From Neoarius graeffei (taxonomy: Eukaryota; Chordata; Actinopteri; Siluriformes; Ariidae): DNA of 64,000 nt. Below, piece after piece: positions 507-64,000 of the stretch. Every line of letters begins with the position of its first letter. The stretch's first letter is position 1. The stretch spans positions 30,647,961 through 30,711,960 of the forward strand of contig NC_083592.1 of NCBI RefSeq assembly GCF_027579695.1, in the 5' to 3' direction. The notes beneath the pieces are model-generated. The model worked only from the letters and a program-made list of their open reading frames with translations. It made no database searches and had not been told where the DNA came from. The translations under genes were made by a program, and so were the position numbers.

Positions 507-2097
507 CTTTTTCACATTTTTCCACCTTACAACCACGAACTTAAAAGTTTTTTTTTTATTGAGATTTTATGTGATAGACCAACACAGAGTAGCACATAAT
601 TGTGAAGTGAAACAAAAATGATAAATGGTCTTCAAAATTTTAAACAAATAAAAATCTGAAAAATGTGGTGTGCATTAGTATTCAGCCCCCCTGCGTCAAT
701 ACTTTGTAGAGCCACCTTTTGCTGCAATTACAGCTGCAAGTCTTTTGTGGTATGTCTCTACCAGCTTTGCACATCTAGACCCTGAAATTTTTGCCCATTC
801 TTCTTTGCAAAATAGCTCAAGCTCAGCCAGATTGGATGGAGAGCGTCTGTGAACAGCAATTTTCAAGTCTTGCCACAGATGCTCAATGGGATTTAGGTCT
901 GGACTTTGACTGGGCTATTCTAACACGTGAATATTATTTGATCTAAACCATTCCATTGTAGCTCTGGCTGTATGTTTAGGGTCATTGTCTTGCTGGAAGG
1001 TGAATCTCCTTCCCAGTCTCAAGTCTTTTGCAGCCACCAACAGGTTTTCTTCCAGGATTGCCCTGTATTTAGCTCCATCCATCTTCCCATCAACTCTGAC
1101 CAGCTTCCCTGTCCCTGCTGAAGAAAAGCATCCCCATAGCATGATGCTGCCACCACCATGTTTCACAGTGGAGATGGTGTGTGCAGGGTGATGAGCAGTG
1201 TTAGTTTTCCGCCACACATAGCGCTTTGCATTTAGGCCAAAAAGTTCAACTTTGCTCTCATCTGACCAAAGCACCTTCTTCCACATGTTTGCTGTGTCCC
1301 CAACATGGCTTCTGGCAAACTGCAAACGGGACTTCTTATGCCTGTCTTTCAACAATGGCTTTCTTCTTGCCACTCTTCCAAAAAGGCCAGATTTGTGGAG
1401 TGTACGACTTGTAGTTGTCCTGTGCACAGATTCTCCCACCTGAGCTGTGGATTTCTGCAGCTCCTCCAGAGTGATCATGGGCCTCTTGGCTGCTTCTCTG
1501 ACCAGTGCTCTCCTTGCTCGCTCTGTCAGTTTAGGTGGACGGCCATGTCTTGGTAGGTTTGCAGTTGTGCCATACTTTTTCCATTTTTGAATGATGGATT
1601 GAACAGTGCTTCTTGAGATGTTCAGAGCTTGGGGTATTTTTTTATAACCTAACCCTGCTTTAAACTTCTCCAGAACTTTATCCCTGACCTGTCTGGTGAG
1701 TTCTTTGGTCTTCATGATGCTGTTTGTTCTTCAGTGTTCTCTAACAAACCACTGAGGCCTTCACAGAACAAATGTATTTGTGCTGAGAATAAATTACACA
1801 CAGTAGGACTCTATTAACTAATTAGATGACTTCTGAAGGCAATTGATTGCACTGGATTGTATTTAGATGCATCAGAGTACAGGGGGCTGAATACTAATGC
1901 ACACCACATTTTTTTCAGATTTTTATTTGTTTAAAATTTTGAAGACCATTTATCATTTTCGTTTCACTTCACAATTATGTGCTACTCTGTGTTGGTCTAT
2001 CACATAAAATCTCAATAAAAAAACTTAAGTTCGTGGTTATAAGGTGGAAAAATGTGAAAAAGTTCAAGGGGTATGAATACCTTTTCAAGGCACTGTA
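505..2097 (-). mobile_element. Near-complete Tc1-like transposon, minus orientation
   Basis: Inverted repeats of ~185-215 bp bracket the element. The left runs 505-690 and the right 1882-2097, ending AAGGCACTGTA. The left copy lacks the outermost ~40 bp present on the right; the AT microsatellite stands there instead. The transposase gene lies on the minus strand between the repeats. The right end abuts the pseudogene that begins near 2110, so the element may have landed in one of that gene's introns. Confidence 0.9.
696..1715 (-). pseudogene. Tc1 transposase with one nonsense codon
   Basis: The start at 1715 (MKTKELTRQVRDK) gives a 339-residue frame of normal Tc1 length. It has an N-terminal paired-type HTH (residues ~1-110, with NISRSTVQSII and the GRPPKL linker), a first catalytic Asp in WSDESK, a second in QQDNDPKH, and [11 protein letters not shown] with the catalytic Glu. 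A TAG at 915-917 separates the second Asp from the Glu block. Tc1 relatives have Trp there, so this looks like a single TGG to TAG change. The rest of the frame stays open to a natural stop at 696, so the copy is recent but dead unless read through. Confidence 0.9.
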
Positions 2098-2353
2098 TGT
2101 ATTTTCCAGGTACCAGTGCAAGTGGTATGCATTTTCAGGCATACCTTCTGGAAGGTCTTAAGTGCTGGAATGAAGATGGGGTGATGCTGCTGTCCGTGCA
2201 GATTGTTCCTCAAGTCCCACCATCCCGCAATCTTACTGTACAGTGGACTTTTAAAGCATGCCACTAACAAGCTGAGCTGTGCTGAACTGGGAAGAGCAGT
2301 CCATCCGTCATACCGAGAGCCACACAAATATACAGGTAATGCTTCCTAACACC

Positions 2354-2397
2354 CACATCCATCCATCCATCCATCCATCCATCCATCCATCCATCTA
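2354..2397. repeat. (ATCC)n microsatellite
   Basis: About ten tandem ATCC units lie in the first intron of the decayed gene, just after the donor at 2336. Confidence 0.95.
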
Positions 2398-3266
2398 TCT
2401 GTGTGTTTGAGTGAGTGTACATATCATGATTTATCATTATTAGTTATAGATAAGAAAGGATGTTGTTTCATATTATTTTCATTGAATGTATTTTTTTGTT
2501 TATACAGGTGAACTTATAGGTGTTGAGTACCTGTATAGCCAGACTGGGGAGGTGCTGCAGGACTTCACTTTAGATCCTGACAGTGAAGAATCTGCCCACC
2601 TGGATGCCTGCCGAGAGGAAGAGGACAATGAAGGCTATGAGGAGAGCAGCCCAGAGGAGGACCCTACCCTGTCCTCAATCCTTGTGGTGCCACGAGCACA
2701 TGCTAGTCTCCATCTAAAGGTGCCGGTTGACAATCCCTCTGATGAGTGTAAGAAAGATTTTAATTAGTATACACCTAATCAGCCACAAGATTTTCTGTTT
2801 TTAATATGTCAGTATTTTGGATATTTTCCTTGCCATGTGTGAAAAGATAGATTATACTGACCAGCAGAATGTAATTTCATATGTCATAGTGAATGTTAAT
2901 GAAGATTTTTATTTCCATTTTCATGTGTATTATTGTAATTTAATTTGTTATTGTTATTAACATCATCATGATTTGTAATATTGTTATTAATTCTACTATT
3001 ATTACTTTCAGTTTTGGAATATATGAGACAGTCGAAGGTCAAGCGCCAGCTTTTTCAAGGTGACAGTTCAGCAAGTGTGGGAGCACCTCCACCGCTTTTG
3101 CCATCAAAGACGAGTGTGGCACCGCCTGACGGTCTGGCGTCACAATCTGCTGGCAGTCCAGTATCTTCCCCATCAGAAGCTGAGGTAATTTATGTGTCAC
3201 AAATCTTTTGTGTGTGGAACATACATACCGACACTTGAAGAAATAAATATTTTGACGTTGTGCCAT

Positions 3267-3298
3267 GGGCGGCACGGTGGTGTAGTGGTTAGCGCTGG
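3267..3298 (+). repeat. V-SINE head fragment
   Basis: About 32 bp match the tRNA-like 5' end of the V-SINE found in full elsewhere here (box A region GTAGTGGTTAGCGCTG). The copy stops there, with no central core and no tail. It lies in an intron of the decayed gene. Confidence 0.8.
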
Positions 3299-4217
3299 TT
3301 GAACATTACTTTTTAAAATGATTTTCTGAAGCAATATTTTCTTATGTTAAATCTTATAATTCACAGCACACATAACTGATGGTGGAATTTTACACTAACA
3401 TTTCAGTAATATGGTTACATTTGTAATTATGCATATACTTAGTATTTTGCCATTCTTTCCCTTTCAACGCAGATGTTTCTTGGGGCAGAATGCTGGACCA
3501 GCACAGTGGCCTGACTGCAATAGGTATGTCGAGTGTCTCATCTCAAAGCTGTGCGAGGACTGCCCATCGTCTGTGCGCAAGAACGGGGCCACCATTCAGC
3601 GCTGAACTCTCATCAGCCGTGCCTACAGAAATATCAGGCAGAAAGTCCTCAACAATGCCAGGGTTATGCAGGGCACCACCATACAGCTGGTTGAAATAAA
3701 CCGCACCACCCTCACCCAATAGTAAATATTTAGAATTATCACTCCTTAAACAAACACGCTCTTGAGCACATCTATTTCAATTCTTTACAATTACATAGCT
3801 TTAGTTGCTGATAAAGCACTCTCACTGATCAAAATGATCTGCATGTTGCTTATTGTTTATATAATCGATTTCAGGCACAACAAAAAGGCTAAGAGGCAAG
3901 AGAAACAGATCCTGGAGCAAGGCATCACACTGGCGCCGCCTGCACCCTGCACGTCTTTTCCTCTCCCTCCTCCTGTGCAGAAACTGACCGCCATGCTTGT
4001 CCCTCCACAGCAGCGTCTATTCGTGTTCTCCCTTCCAATCAACACTAGTGGCCAAGCCAGCCTCCTGTCACCCTTCTTCTCCTGTCTGGAGAACTTGCAC
4101 AGCCTTCGCCCATCAGCCCTCGGTCGACTAAGTGGTACCAGGAGAAGAAACACGCGAGAGAAGAAGCAGGCCACGTCTGTAAGAAATACATCAGATTCTG
4201 ATGATCAGAACCAATGA

Positions 4218-5112: not shown

Positions 5113-5716
5113 CCCGATTCCAAAAAAGCTGGGACAAAGTACAAATTATAAATAAAATATATAAACCCGATTCCAAAAAAGTTGTGACAAAGTACAAATT
5201 GTAAATAAAAACGGAATGCAATCATTTACAAATCTCAAAAACTGATATTGTATTCACAATAGAACATAGACAACATATCAAATGTCGAAAGTGAGACATT
5301 TTGAAATTTCATGCCAAATATTGGCTCATTTGAAATTTCATCACAGCAATACATCTCAAAAAAGTTGGGACAGGGCAATAAGAGGCTGGAAAAGTTAAAG
5401 GTACAAAAAAGGAACAGCTGGAGGACCAAATTGCAGCTCATTAGGTCAATTGACAATAGGTCATTAACATAACTGGGTATAAAAAGAGCATCTTGGAGTG
5501 GCAGCGGCTCTCAGAAGTAAAGATGGGAAGAGGATCACCAATCCCCCTAATTCTGCGCCGACAAATAGTGGAGCAATATCAGAAAGGAGTTCGACAGTGT
5601 AAAATTGCAAAGAGTTTGAACATATCATCATCTACAGTGCATAATATCATCAAAAGATTCAGAGAATCTGGAAGAATCTCTGTGCGTAAGGGTCAAGGCC
5701 AGAAAACCATACTGGG

Positions 5717-6286
5717 TTAGTCTGGCTAACGCGACTTCAAAGCTCTGCGAGCATTTGGTCTGGCAAAGATATTAAGCCCAACCGTTTCCCAAAGTGCGTG
5801 GTTGACCCACCTCCCTGAAATGCCTCAGTTTGCTACTGGTCGAAGCCAGAAAAGGCTGTGACGAAACTTAAACCAATCACATCACTCTTTCCTCTGACGT
5901 ATGTGACGTGACGGGGCTAACTGGTAGATTAAACTCTTACCGAAGCCGGTCAGGAGCAAGGTGAAAACGTCCTTCCTTTCAATAAATACCTCCAGGGCTG
6001 CTCTTTGCTCCGTTTTCAATGAGAACCTGCTCCATGTTCGTAATGTTTCTAGTGAATGAAGCGCTTCCGGCATAGATTCTGTAAACAATCTATGGCTTCC
6101 GGTCGCAGTTCTACTACGTCACTGCCTTGAACACGCCTCTACCCAGGGCCGTTGGAGATGCTCAAAGTTGATTGGCTCCCGATTTTTCGGGAGCTTGGAA
6201 GAGCTGTAGATAGCTTGCCTGGCCAGACTAAGCTCACAACAGGCCCTCGTGTTGCGTCACTCTTAGGATGGGCGGGCCCAGGCTAA
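5717..6286. mobile_element. Non-autonomous TIR element carrying a helicase fragment
   Basis: This 570-bp block interrupts the Tc1 transposase gene. It begins TTAGTCTGG and ends with the complement of TTAGCCTGG. It is flanked by TACTGGG (or ATACTGGG) on both sides, a 7-8 bp TSD that fits a hAT-like insertion. The Tc1 reading continues directly after removal of the block and one repeat. Internally it carries a short minus-strand RecQ-like coding fragment, so it looks like a MITE-like element with captured or residual coding sequence. Confidence 0.7.
5882..6088 (-). pseudogene. RecQ-like helicase fragment
   Basis: The minus strand reads FSLKTEQRAALEVFIERKDVF, then LLLTGFGKSLIYQLAP. This is the Q-motif-like stretch plus Walker A (TGFGKS) of RecQ-family ATP-dependent helicases. 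Only ~60 residues remain; the DEAH box and later motifs are absent. The frame leaves the RecQ pattern after QLAP and soon stops. It could be a gene fragment captured by the transposon or the remnant of a helicase the parent element encoded. I favour the latter because I recall similar helicase fragments repeated in other fish. Confidence 0.6.
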
Positions 6287-19748: not shown

Positions 19749-20065
19749 GGCGGCACAGTGGTGTAGTGGTTAGCACTGTCGCCTCACAGCAAGAAGGTCT
19801 GGGTTCGAGCCCTGTAGCTGATGAGGGCTTTTCTGTGGGGAGTTTGTGTGTTGTCTGTGTGGGTTTCCTCTGGGTGCTCTGGTTTCCCCCAAAGACATGC
19901 AGGTTAGGTTAACTGGTGACTCTAATTTGTGTGTGTCAGCCCTGCAATAACCTGGTGACTTGTGTACTTGGTGTACCCTGCCTCTCACCCATAGTCAGCT
20001 GGGATAGGCTCCAGCTTGCCTGTGACCCTGTAGAACAGGATAAAGTGGCTAGAGATGATGAGATG
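19749..20065 (+). mobile_element. V-SINE, diverged
   Basis: Head, shortened core and tail are recognisable but carry several deletions, so it is older than most copies here. ATGTAAACAGC occurs just before it (from ~19737) and just after it (20063-20073), the probable TSD. Confidence 0.88.
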
Positions 20066-59551: not shown

Positions 59552-59669
59552 ACCCCGATTCCAAAAAAGTTGGGACAAAGTACAAATTGTAAATAAAAAC
59601 GGAGTGCAATAATTTACAAATCTCAAAAACTGATATTGTATTCACAATAGAACATAGACAACATATCAA
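59552..59669 (+). mobile_element. Tc1-like 5' end (host of the Harbinger element), left part
   Basis: CCCCGATTCCAAAAAAGTTG and the following ~118 bp are the 5' inverted repeat of the same family as 5166-7276. The sequence breaks off after CATATCAA and resumes at 63741. Confidence 0.93.
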
Positions 59670-59910
59670 GGCCGAATCCCATTTCACCCCTTGGCCCAAC
59701 CCCTTAGCCCTTCCCCTCCATTTTGCGCGTTCATGTGAAGGGGTAGGAGTATCCCAATCCCAGTTAACGCGGAGGGGTAGGGGAAGGGGGAGGGCTTTTG
59801 TACCCCTCCAAACGGAGATTTTCCTGGAGCTCACTCCGAACGAAGGGGTTTGAGTGATTTCCCACAATGCCATGCGGATTTCAGCGAGATTTCATGCGGA
59901 TTTCAGAAAG

Positions 59911-61304
59911 ATGGCGGTTCCCGCGGCGAAAGATTTTCATAAATGTAAGTATTTTCTCCATTATAACCGTTCTACAATAGTGTTAACTAGCCTATTAACG
60001 TTAACGTACTATAAACATTAACGTTGTGTGATCGGTTGATGCAATGAAAATTGTGAACAAAGTTGTTATTTAGCAGTTAGCTCAAGTAATTACAAACAAC
60101 AGAGGATCTGCTTTTTCTGTTGTGTCGTTACGTTAACCAGCTTCCCATCCCTGTGTACTTGCAGGGAATCCAGAGGAAACACGCCGCTTGATTCGTTTTC
60201 GAGCTGAGAATGAGCAGCGATTTCTGAAATCTAGAGCTGCTGCTAAAAAGCTTTGGGAGTGAGTATTTCGGTTGCTTGACTGCGTGTTCTCGCTTTTATT
60301 GTTTACATGAGTGTTCTGACACCTCATTCTGTCGGATGTGGTGCACGAAGCGCTAAAGATATCCCATTCAGTGGTGTTAGTTAACAAATCACACCCTTCA
60401 TTAGCTTGCTCTTCACAGTGTTTACATCACTCCTCATATTTATGATACAGGACGCTGATCAAGGAGCTTGGCCTGGAGGGAAAGGTGACCTCCCAGCAAG
60501 CATCAAAAAAGTGGGAGAACTTGAAAAAGAAGTATAAGGTATGTGGGCAGCAATGTCGTTCTAGTAGATGGATGAATGTATTATTTAAATGATTTTCAGT
60601 TAGCAATGCAAGGATGTTTTCATAAATACAAATTTCTATTTGCTTACTGCAGGAGCTGAAAAATCCACTCTCTGGGAGTGGGACAGATGAGGGCCAAACA
60701 ACTGCGTGCACATGGCAGTTTTTTGAGGACATGCACGAGGTGTTGGGATCCAGGCCATCCATTGACCCTCCAGTGGTAGTGGAATCATTTTGTCCAGATG
60801 CTGATCCCACACTTCTGATGGTAAAGATGCTGCCATGGATTAATTTTTTGGTGGTCTTTGTAAAGACTGATAATGTGTATGGTTTAACGTTGTGGAATGC
60901 AAACCAGTATGTTATTCTTTTTGTTTTCAAAAACTATATTTCAACTTACTTGAATTGTACACACCAACCAATTCTGGACTAAAATACCTTCACATTTTTT
61001 TCTCGCTTTGGAAAAAAGCATCTACTTAAATGTAATATTTTCTTCATTTCAGGAAATCGCCGGGCCCTCCTCAGACACCTTTTTTCCCATGGCAGCCAGC
61101 ACCTCTGATGCTGACACATGTACTACCTCTAGTCCTGCTCCTATTCCCCCAACCCCGTCCCCAAAGAAGAAGAGGAAGAGGAAGTTAGACTTGATAAATT
61201 TCCTTGCAAAGGAGAGTGAGAAGGCGCAGAAGCGCCATGAGGAGACCGAGGAGAAGACGGAGCGCTTTTTGGGTCTTTTTGAAAAGTTGGTAGAAAAAAT
61301 TTGA
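59911..61304 (+). CDS. Harbinger Myb/SANT-like DNA-binding protein
   Basis: Five exons with GT-AG sites and agreeing phases: 59911-59944, 60165-60258, 60451-60538, 60653-60820 and 61053-61304, giving 211 aa. MAVPAAKDFHKWNPEETRRL opens a Myb/SANT-like (MADF/trihelix-type) domain with the tryptophan pattern KWNPEET...AKKLWETLIKELG...ASKKWENLKKKYK (residues ~12-75). A linker with TCTWQFFEDMHEVLGSRPSI follows, then a Ser/Pro-rich stretch, the basic PKKKRKRK (possible nuclear signal) and a charged, coiled-coil-like C-terminus (EKAQKRHEETEEKTERFLGL). In Harbinger elements this partner binds the transposase and the subterminal DNA and brings the transposase to the nucleus. The start has a good context (AAAGATGGCG). 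No stop or frame change seen. Confidence 0.9.
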
Positions 61305-61323
61305 GTTCATTTTGTCTTCTTGT

Positions 61324-61562
61324 TAAATCAAGTCAACTTTCTTATATTTGAGACATGTAAAGTTTGTCTTTACCTGACATGTTTGGACTGTGTAGTTTCC
61401 GTCTTCCTCGGAGGGTCACACTGGTATTGGCGTGTGACATGCGCACGTCACACCCCAACACCAGTGTGACCCTCTGAGGAAGACGGAAGCTACACCGTAC
61501 AAACATGTCAGGTAAAGACAAACTTTACATGTCTCAAATATAAGAAAGTTGACTCGATTTAA
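61324..61562. mobile_element. Second palindromic insert with hammerhead-like core
   Basis: Arms of ~115 bp (TTAAATCAAGTCAACTTTCT and its complement at the far side) surround a centre near 61435. CTGAGGA (61474-61480), GACGG and ACATGTC (61503-61509) repeat the core order of the 46.1-kb insert. The GAAA is diverged (TACAAAC), and the minus-strand copy is diverged too. It lies between the two Harbinger genes, just after the Myb-like stop, and harms neither. Confidence 0.6.
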
Positions 61563-61753
61563 TACTTTTGTTTCAGTACAGTTCTTCCCATTTTTATTTA
61601 TTTCTCTTTTTCATTTGAAGTTCTTTTTAATGTGTTCTATTGTGTGCAATGTTTACATGTTTGACTGACTTTTTGCAATTCAACGCTGACTGATGTGAAG
61701 GGATAAGCAGCTGGTTTTTTTTACTTTACTAAAATACTTTTCTATTTTTCTTA

Positions 61754-61756
<3 letters not shown>

Positions 61757-61835
<79 letters not shown>

Positions 61836-61838
61836 AAT
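61757..61838. repeat. (AT)n microsatellite and T run
   Basis: More than 30 AT units followed by ~18 T, in the spacer between the two Harbinger genes. Confidence 0.97.
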
Positions 61839-62107
61839 AAATCATGCAACAGGAGTACCGCTAGTACATTTGAATAATGTAGCAGCCTAATAAAGTGCAC
61901 TGTTTTTTTTACCAGTTTGAGAGCATGATTACCACACCAACCACACATTAATAACATCTGAAACGGATATTGGCATGAAAAGATGTATTAGGATAAAAAA
62001 AAAAAACAATATACATTCCTGAGGTCAATCAAAAACAAGTGTCAAAAAAGAAGATTTTAAATAAGTTTCAGTATTAAAAAAGTACACTCCACAAGCCTAC
62101 AAAAAAG

Positions 62108-63509
62108 TCACAGCTGGGCAGCCAGTCTGTCCCTTGATGCATTTCCAGATGTCTCATTAGCTGCGAGGGGCTCCCGGGGAGGTTGGGGATCTAGCAGGTC
62201 CTGTACCACATCGTCATCTGGCTCCAGCAGGTCCCCATTCTCCAGACAGATGTTGTGCAGAAAGGCACAGGATGCAATGACCTGAGGTGCAAAGATCGGT
62301 TTAATCTCCAGGGCTTTGAAAAGAGTACACCTCCACCTGCTCTTCATTACGCCAAAAGCCCTTTCGATTATGCTGCGGCCCTTGGCATGGTAATGATTGA
62401 AGCGCCCCTGCACTGGTCCAGTAACTGGCTCCTTGTATGGTGTAATGAGGCAGATAGGTGTGTCCAAACATGGATAGCCACCATCTCCTAGGAGAATGTA
62501 GCCTGGTGGAGGGTACCGTCTTGCTGTATAAAACCTGCTGTTTTTCATGACTCGTGTGTCGTGAACTGACCCCGGGTAGCCAACAAAGATGTCCAAAAAC
62601 TTTCCACTGGAATCACATATTGCCTGCATGTTAATTGAATAGAATCCTTTGTAATTCAAATAGTCTATTATGTGCCGTGCTGGTGGCTTAATCCGTATGT
62701 GGCTTCCGTCTATTGCACCCACAACATTGCTGAATGCAGGGCTCCCTGAAAGTTGGGCAAATCCTTGGCCGACTGCATGCAGCTCTCCAGTCTTGGGGAA
62801 AGAGATGGCACGGTGCAGATTGGTGCAGATCTTATTTGCTACTTTGTGGACAATGCGGTGAACTGTGGATTTGGGTATATTGAAAACTCTGGAGACAACG
62901 GTATAAGACAGTCCATGAGCCAGCCAGTAGACATAGACAATGACTTCTAGCTGACTACCCCAGCCATGGTCCTGTTCTGTTTGTAGCAGTCTCTGCACAC
63001 TGTCCATAGCCCTTCTGCTGAGGCGAAAGTCCCGTTTCAACTCTGACTCTACATTGAACCACAGACGCAGGATGGGCATCTTGTAATCTAGTCTACAGTA
63101 TGTAGGATGACTCGTCTGAAAAAGAAAAGGAAGGATTTGTTTAGCTAGTGTCTGTGGCCTTCCATTCACCCAACCAACGAATTCACTGTACCTACCATGC
63201 ATCCATGCTTCACATTTTCATTATTTTCAGTTATCAGATGAACACAGAAAAAATGTATTCATGTGTATCACAAGCGATAGGATGCAAAGTAACCAATACA
63301 TGCTAACGCTAGCTTGTATGTTGTGTAGCTTGGCTAAACTAACGTGTTTTGTCGTAACGTTACATTATACATACCATCAAATCGTTAATTATTGCTCCCA
63401 GGTGTTGTAAACATCTTCGTCTACTGGCATTTCTCCGTTTAGCTGCAGACAACCGTAAAAAGAGGCCTATAGCCCAGGACACAGTGATCACAACAGCAGC
63501 AGACGGCAT
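62108..63509 (-). CDS. Harbinger DDE transposase (HARBI1-like)
   Basis: Two exons on the minus strand: 63375-63509 (45 codons, starts MPSAAVVITVSWAIG, donor GTATGT) and 62108-63115 (acceptor TTCTTTTTCAG), in phase, giving 380 aa. A longer unspliced start at 63202 exists but gives an N-terminus unlike relatives. HTH-like region ~residues 100-145 (VYWLAHGLSYTVVSRVFNIP, STVHRIVHKV). DDE_Tnp_4 nuclease: GAIDGSHIRIKPP (first Asp), LGDGGYPC (second Asp) and IIERAFGVMKSRWR (catalytic Glu), with HDTRVMKNS and FLHNICLENGD also typical. All three acidic residues are present and normally spaced. It lies tail to tail with the Myb-like gene. Confidence 0.95.
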
Positions 63510-63740
63510 TTCAGCAGAGATTTCCGGTTCTGCGGCTGGTCGCAGCCAATGACGCATTTGGTCGCGTTTTGCTAACGTAAACGCTGACGGAGGTACGCGA
63601 TGACGTATGCGATCGTTGAAGGGCTATCCCAATACGTAGGGGTTGAATTTCAAGCCCTATCCCTTGTAGCTCAGTTTCAAGGGGAAGGGCCAAGGGGAAG
63701 GGGGAGGGGAAGGGGTAGAAATTAGAATTGGGATTGGGCC

Positions 63741-64000
63741 CAAATGTCGAAAGTGAGACATTTTGAAATTTCATGCCAAATATTGGCTCATTTGAAATTT
63801 CATGACAGCAACACATCTCAAAAAAGTTGGGACAGGGGCAATAAGAGGCTGGAAAAGTTAAAGGTACAAAAAAGGAACAGCTGGAGGACCAAATTGCAAC
63901 TCATTAGGTCAACTGGCAATAGGTCATTAACATGACTGGGTATAAAAAGAGCATCTTGGAGTGGCAGCAGCTCTCAGAAGTAAAGATGGGAAGAGGATCA
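63741..64000 (+). mobile_element. Tc1-like 5' end, right part, cut by the window edge
   Basis: Continues the Tc1 element interrupted at 59669 (CAAATGTCGAAAGTGAGACA onward). The transposase start (ATGGGAAGAGGATCA, MGRGS) is reached at 63986, just before the window ends. Confidence 0.93.

Follow-up and report, generated by a model that had tools for sequence, protein, structure and literature searches.

We analysed a 64,000-nucleotide stretch of the 2.34 Gb Neoarius graeffei genome (C25:30647961-30711960, hereafter the window) and are highly confident that a 4071 bp element at positions 59670-63740, which sits within a Tc1-type element, belongs to a young family of PIF/Harbinger-type DNA transposons (PHIS superfamily), of which it is a recent and structurally complete insertion. 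The element has matching ends, a target-site duplication whose unfilled counterpart lies in the same window, two open genes and a full catalytic triad, and the genome holds dispersed near-identical copies of it, along with derivatives that share its ends and its taste in target sites. The original prediction, made from the letters of the window, had described an intact-looking PIF/Harbinger of the autonomous type, and this description is borne out by both domains, the open genes, the ends and the empty site. Together, natural open copies, near-identical siblings, derivatives and an in-window empty site make vertebrate Harbinger activity and the birth of miniature inverted-repeat transposable elements (MITEs) directly testable, and the element is well placed as a candidate for a Harbinger with possible present-day mobility in a vertebrate.

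Ends, empty site and genes of the window copy

The left terminal inverted repeat, GGCCGAATCCCATTTC, occupies 59670..59685 on the plus strand, and its inverted partner at the right end, GGCCCAATCCCAATTC, occupies 63725..63740 on the minus strand. That the ends match had been claimed, and a pattern built from them found these two ends as its sole 0-mismatch matches in the window; with up to 3 mismatches allowed there were 5 matches, where 2.86 would be expected by chance. The repeats are short, and their first bases, GGCC, are in keeping with the A or G that begins PIF/Harbinger ends. Immediately outside them lie the two copies of the duplication, CAA at 59667..59669 and CAA at 63741..63743. When the flanks were joined with one CAA removed, the resulting sequence aligned across the junction to window positions 5157-5717 with 96.8% identity over 563 bp, and the sibling Tc1-type copy found there has a single CAA at 5279..5281. 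Because the joined flanks align through the junction to a sibling repeat, the unfilled site and the CAA duplication are demonstrated within the window itself, as had been proposed from this same Tc1 sibling at about 5.28 kb. The host Tc1-type copy extends beyond window base 64000, and its transposase has an apparent in-frame stop (read by eye).

The element carries two convergent genes, the splicing of which was predicted from sequence. The plus-strand, Myb-like gene has five exons, at 59911..59944 (with the ATG), 60165..60258, 60451..60538, 60653..60820 and 61053..61305, the last of which holds the stop codon and a basic stretch, KKKRKRK, that is possibly a nuclear signal. All of its junctions are GT/AG, its open frame spans 211 amino acids plus the stop, and its product matches a Myb/SANT-like domain (Pfam Myb_DNA-bind_4, PF13837; E 4.1e-15). 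The minus-strand transposase gene has two exons, at 63375..63509 (ATG at 63509) and 62108..63115, with a GT/AG junction and an open frame of 380 amino acids plus a stop. The model is least secure at its 5′ exon, because the minus-strand open reading frame (ORF) stays open without splicing from 63217. Exon 2 is the catalytic one and covers positions 1-158 of the 158 in the DDE_Tnp_4 profile (E 1.3e-34); alignment places the triad at D181, D256 and E296. HTH_Tnp_4 and other helix-turn-helix (HTH) models match the exon-2 protein at about residues 56-97, every score falling under the Pfam cut-off. The canonical splice sites of both open genes (five plus and two minus exons) and the three DDE residues agree with what had been predicted.

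Subterminal regions of 170 bp at the left (59670..59839, plus strand) and right (63571..63740, minus strand) ends each contain six AGGGGTAGG-type 9-mers, and the 3731-bp interior contains none (both strands counted, up to 1 mismatch), for a motif that was selected post hoc among the best of many 9-mers. Given that the Myb-like protein of zebrafish Harbinger3_DR binds a 9-bp subterminal motif (PMC9710019; compared by description), we took these 9-mers as candidate binding sites for the Myb-like protein. By analogy with Harbinger3_DR and with rice Ping/mPing, from which we draw both the roles of the proteins and the chemistry, the Myb-like protein would bind the repeated G-rich subterminal sites and bring the DDE transposase to the ends, and the transposase would excise the element and join it to a roughly palindromic, often imperfect target, GAC-TWA-GTC, where a 3-bp stagger would become the duplication.

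Copies, derivatives and target sites in the genome

The original prediction had suggested a recently mobile family and had proposed that genomic copies be sought and their divergence computed. Near-identical copies were indeed found, and they are not all old and diverged. When the genome was searched at the DNA level for the transposase exon, 14 first-look candidates yielded 13 loci of 96-100% identity. When the left 1636 bp served as query (40/646 candidates scored), 15 copies spanned it and 25 matched shorter left parts. With gaps counted, five of the 15 query-spanning copies (the window copy, locus L039, included) are at 99-100% and ten are at 92-96%. With gaps excluded, full copies lie 0.46-1.78% from the window copy and form two subfamilies, four copies of A at 0.46-1.02% and eight of B at 1.44-1.78%; this count omits L045, which has an internal deletion, and L051, for which 17.7 kb of joined sequence revealed no right half. 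In a FastTree phylogeny of 13 copies, 14 sites distinguish A from B, the A clade has a support of 0.999 with terminal branches of 0.14-0.42%, and the nearest relative of the window copy is L040 (support 0.961). Subfamily B is star-like, with internal branches near zero, as in a burst. Over 3923 sites the window copy shows 10 private substitutions, 6 of them exonic; at vertebrate neutral rates this would correspond to an age on the million-year scale, an uncalibrated figure that is several-fold uncertain. Both genes are open with all junctions intact in five of the 15 long copies (L039, L041, L042, L048 and L049). As L041 and L042 stem from one insertion by segmental duplication (their flanks are 99.9% and 97.8% identical), this amounts to 4/14 independent insertions.

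Deletion derivatives accompany the long copies. At 15 further loci both types of end are kept (15/15, with 0-3 end mismatches), and the deletions fall into four classes that join element positions 935 to 3801, 849 to 3863, about 756-759 to 3746, and 666 to 3863-3866. Over their first 620 bp these derivatives differ by a mean of 1.3-1.6% among themselves, 1.4-1.5% from B and 2.5-2.6% from A, and since they are closer to B than to A, those sampled descend from the B side; being the longest that were scored, they may be unrepresentative of all. We read the expansion of the family as at least two pulses, the first of subfamily B and the deletion derivatives sampled, the second of the younger A, which includes the window copy. 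A left-end 28-mer (up to 2 mismatches) occurs 1866 times genome-wide, 940 times forward and 926 times in reverse, and its reversed control 0 times. Given this number against only about 15 long copies, we infer that most of these left ends belong to short derivatives, the left end alone having been counted.

Both ends were recognised at 29 of 30 loci, and exact 3-bp duplications flank 21 of these 29: TTA at seven, TTT at three, TTG at two and nine others once each. The flanks of the 21 exact sites are biased symmetrically towards GAC-TWA-GTC, with C at −2 in 30/42 half-sites (p 8e-12, approximate in that half-sites were treated as independent), A at −3 in 28/42, T at −1 in 27/42 and G at −4 in 20/42, and 20/21 sites have A or T in the middle of the duplication. 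A target preference that extends beyond the duplicated bases has been described for the superfamily (PMC2836001). At the L041/L042 insertion, the two flanks, when joined (ACACAAA+TTAGAG), look like a repeat copy that stands uninterrupted in the window (reverse-complement offset 44083, about plus-strand position 19,900), as if the element had inserted without a duplication or the duplication had been lost.

Known systems and competing explanations

The element has the core features of PIF/Harbinger transposons, namely the two genes, the domains, the ends and the 3-bp duplication. As described by Han et al. 2015 (PMC4482050), the group pairs a DDE_Tnp_4 transposase with a Myb/SANT protein, has a mean length of about 4124 bp (about 4.1 kb here), and has A or G as the first base of its terminal repeats (G here) and a 3-bp duplication that is most often TTA. 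Unlike that description, duplications are looser here (8/21 TWA) and the HTH matches lie under the Pfam cut-offs. NuwaII, known from three bony fishes in the same account, likewise has two genes, terminal repeats starting with GG, and C and G around the duplication (C|TNA|G), to which the C at −2 and T at −1 of our half-sites can be compared; the difference is that the middle base here is nearly always A or T. Judged by described features, the element could fall either within PIF/Harbinger proper, with its TWA duplication, or within NuwaII, with its C|TNA|G target and GG ends. Two other lineages were rejected: ISL2EU has a YqaJ nuclease as its second gene and an AT duplication, whereas the second gene here is Myb-like, with no YqaJ Pfam match, and the duplication is 3 bp; Spy mostly has a single gene and an AAATTT target without duplication, whereas here there are two genes and CAA is duplicated. 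Zebrafish Harbinger3_DR (Sinzelle et al. 2008, via PMC2836001 and PMC9710019) has the same two-protein architecture and a non-autonomous partner, but its proteins were reconstructed, while here natural copies have open genes. Rice Ping/mPing (PMC2836001) is alike in its few full elements, its internal-deletion MITEs with common ends and an insertion preference broader than the 3-bp duplication, and differs in being a plant system of proven natural activity, the present family being known from sequence. The original prediction also called it uncommon for a fish Harbinger to keep its two partner genes intact. Over eukaryotes, 88/214 PIF/Harbinger families and 22/30 NuwaII families are potentially active, with two intact ORFs (PMC4482050), and both ORFs persist in all the fish transposons studied by Etchegaray et al. 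2022 (PMC9179366); as both papers treat families or consensus sequences and not single copies, the claim of rarity is unsupported rather than refuted.

A recently mobile family could since have become extinct, with the window copy drifting after the burst and no copy competent today. We lean slightly towards this possibility, which is compatible with our preferred reading, whose claim is recent and not current movement. All 13 copies tallied carry private changes, and coding (97/1779) and noncoding (121/2144) sites bear private substitutions at equal rates across the 15 copies, meaning that a copy drifts neutrally once inserted. At least one gene is broken or missing in 10 of the 15 long copies, through a stop, a frameshift, a lost junction, a deletion or a missing half. 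The window copy itself has private amino-acid changes: it carries coding changes absent from every other copy compared, its transposase, for example, having I194 where all nine equally long copies have R, and any of these changes could impair function. It can still be called intact-looking, but because of these private changes its open frames by themselves are no proof of competence. Extinction is harder to square with the five copies, from four independent insertions, that retain both genes open, and with subfamily A terminal branches of just 0.14-0.42%. The broken genes and the private coding changes also weigh against a recently inserted, complete copy, and so do the following results. Shared coding variants (13 nonsynonymous and 9 synonymous, a ratio below the roughly 3:1 of all possible changes, with transitions alone giving about 1.9:1) and shared-variant density (coding 22/1779, noncoding 32/2144) give, in these small numbers, no clear signal of purifying selection between copies. 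Thirteen of the 21 exact duplications, the CAA of the window included, depart from TWA (the other eight being TTA at seven and TAA at one). Identical 3-bp flanks are lacking at 8/29 two-ended loci, or 7/28 independent insertions (L029, which also has a damaged end, L030, L036, L038, L041/L042, L047 and L052), which exceeds the prediction from a divergence of about 1-2%. A sequence search of solved structures with the transposase exon gave no match up to E 1, and a single-sequence AlphaFold model of the exon was unusable (pLDDT 34).

A burst following recent horizontal transfer from another animal is conceivable, although we think it unlikely. Such transfer is documented for Harbinger elements in the accounts of salmonids and carp (PMC9179366) and of sea kraits (PMC8437027), and the family is isolated in the genome. 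In a protein search with the transposase (120/1346 candidates scored), identity is at least 95% at 13 loci, whereas the next long match, at a single locus on C11, is 47% identical over query residues 6-280; two short fragments on C14 are at 56-57%, the remaining matches listed are at 42% or less, and the scored candidates included no copy of intermediate age. This absence fits recent arrival or the recent revival of a low-copy lineage, and an old low-copy lineage that loses its old copies would yield the same pattern. Moreover, MITE divergence was sampled in the longest derivatives only, and a scan of viral contigs found no relative. It is also unlikely, in our view, that the family is a naturally active vertebrate counterpart of Ping/mPing, in which a few autonomous copies would still be mobilising both themselves and as many as about 1,850 deletion derivatives, perhaps having reached the genome horizontally not long ago. 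Natural activity is reported for Spy, a bee element of the wider PHIS superfamily (PMC11304231), and no naturally active vertebrate Harbinger was evident from titles and abstract openings of a literature that was mostly subscription-free. Finally, two intact adjacent genes could be a host-domesticated pair and not a transposon, as in the co-domesticated PIF pairs that have been described (PMC9710019), but this is refuted by the inverted repeats, the duplication, the empty site and the many near-identical dispersed copies.

Internal repeats and other transposase loci

Between the convergent genes lie a spacer-less palindrome of 240 nt (61323..61562), in which 112/120 arm positions pair, and a (TA)n microsatellite (61756..61820) whose length differs among copies. 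The palindrome is present at 95-100% identity in the 15 long-copy places and at 72-86% elsewhere in the genome (40/839 candidates scored). Arm pairing is kept in 14/15 copies (107-113 of 120 positions), L051 having 84, and there were no compensatory double changes among 15 variable palindrome pairs, two of which vary by gaps only. We therefore rejected a selected hairpin, given the lack of compensatory changes and the dispersed copies elsewhere, and because these diverged copies are dispersed across the genome, the palindrome is best read as an older fold-back repeat that the ancestor of the family may have captured.

A retroelement of about 3.7 kb interrupts the (TA)n array of the Harbinger, between the two genes, in L041 (C1, about 113.65 Mb) and has an 856-amino-acid open frame that matches RVT_1 (E 3.7e-26). 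This retroelement may be R4/Dong-like. It is absent from the segmental duplicate L042 and so was probably inserted after the duplication. Sequence similar to this insert directly follows the (TA)n of L051.

The 47%-identical transposase on C11 (L057, C11:6953399-6954226) has an open frame of 419 amino acids, but its alignment has IIK in place of the third catalytic acidic residue and also differs after the first D; judged by these residues it is dead or domesticated. The eight top DDE_Tnp_4 loci of the genome (L001-L008) gave no significant tblastn match with the transposase and belong to other families. Across the genome, 150 scored of 1485 candidates yielded 151 DDE_Tnp_4 matches, among them one cluster of similar copies on C11 at about 38-40 Mb and, near 82.77 Mb on C1, a pair.

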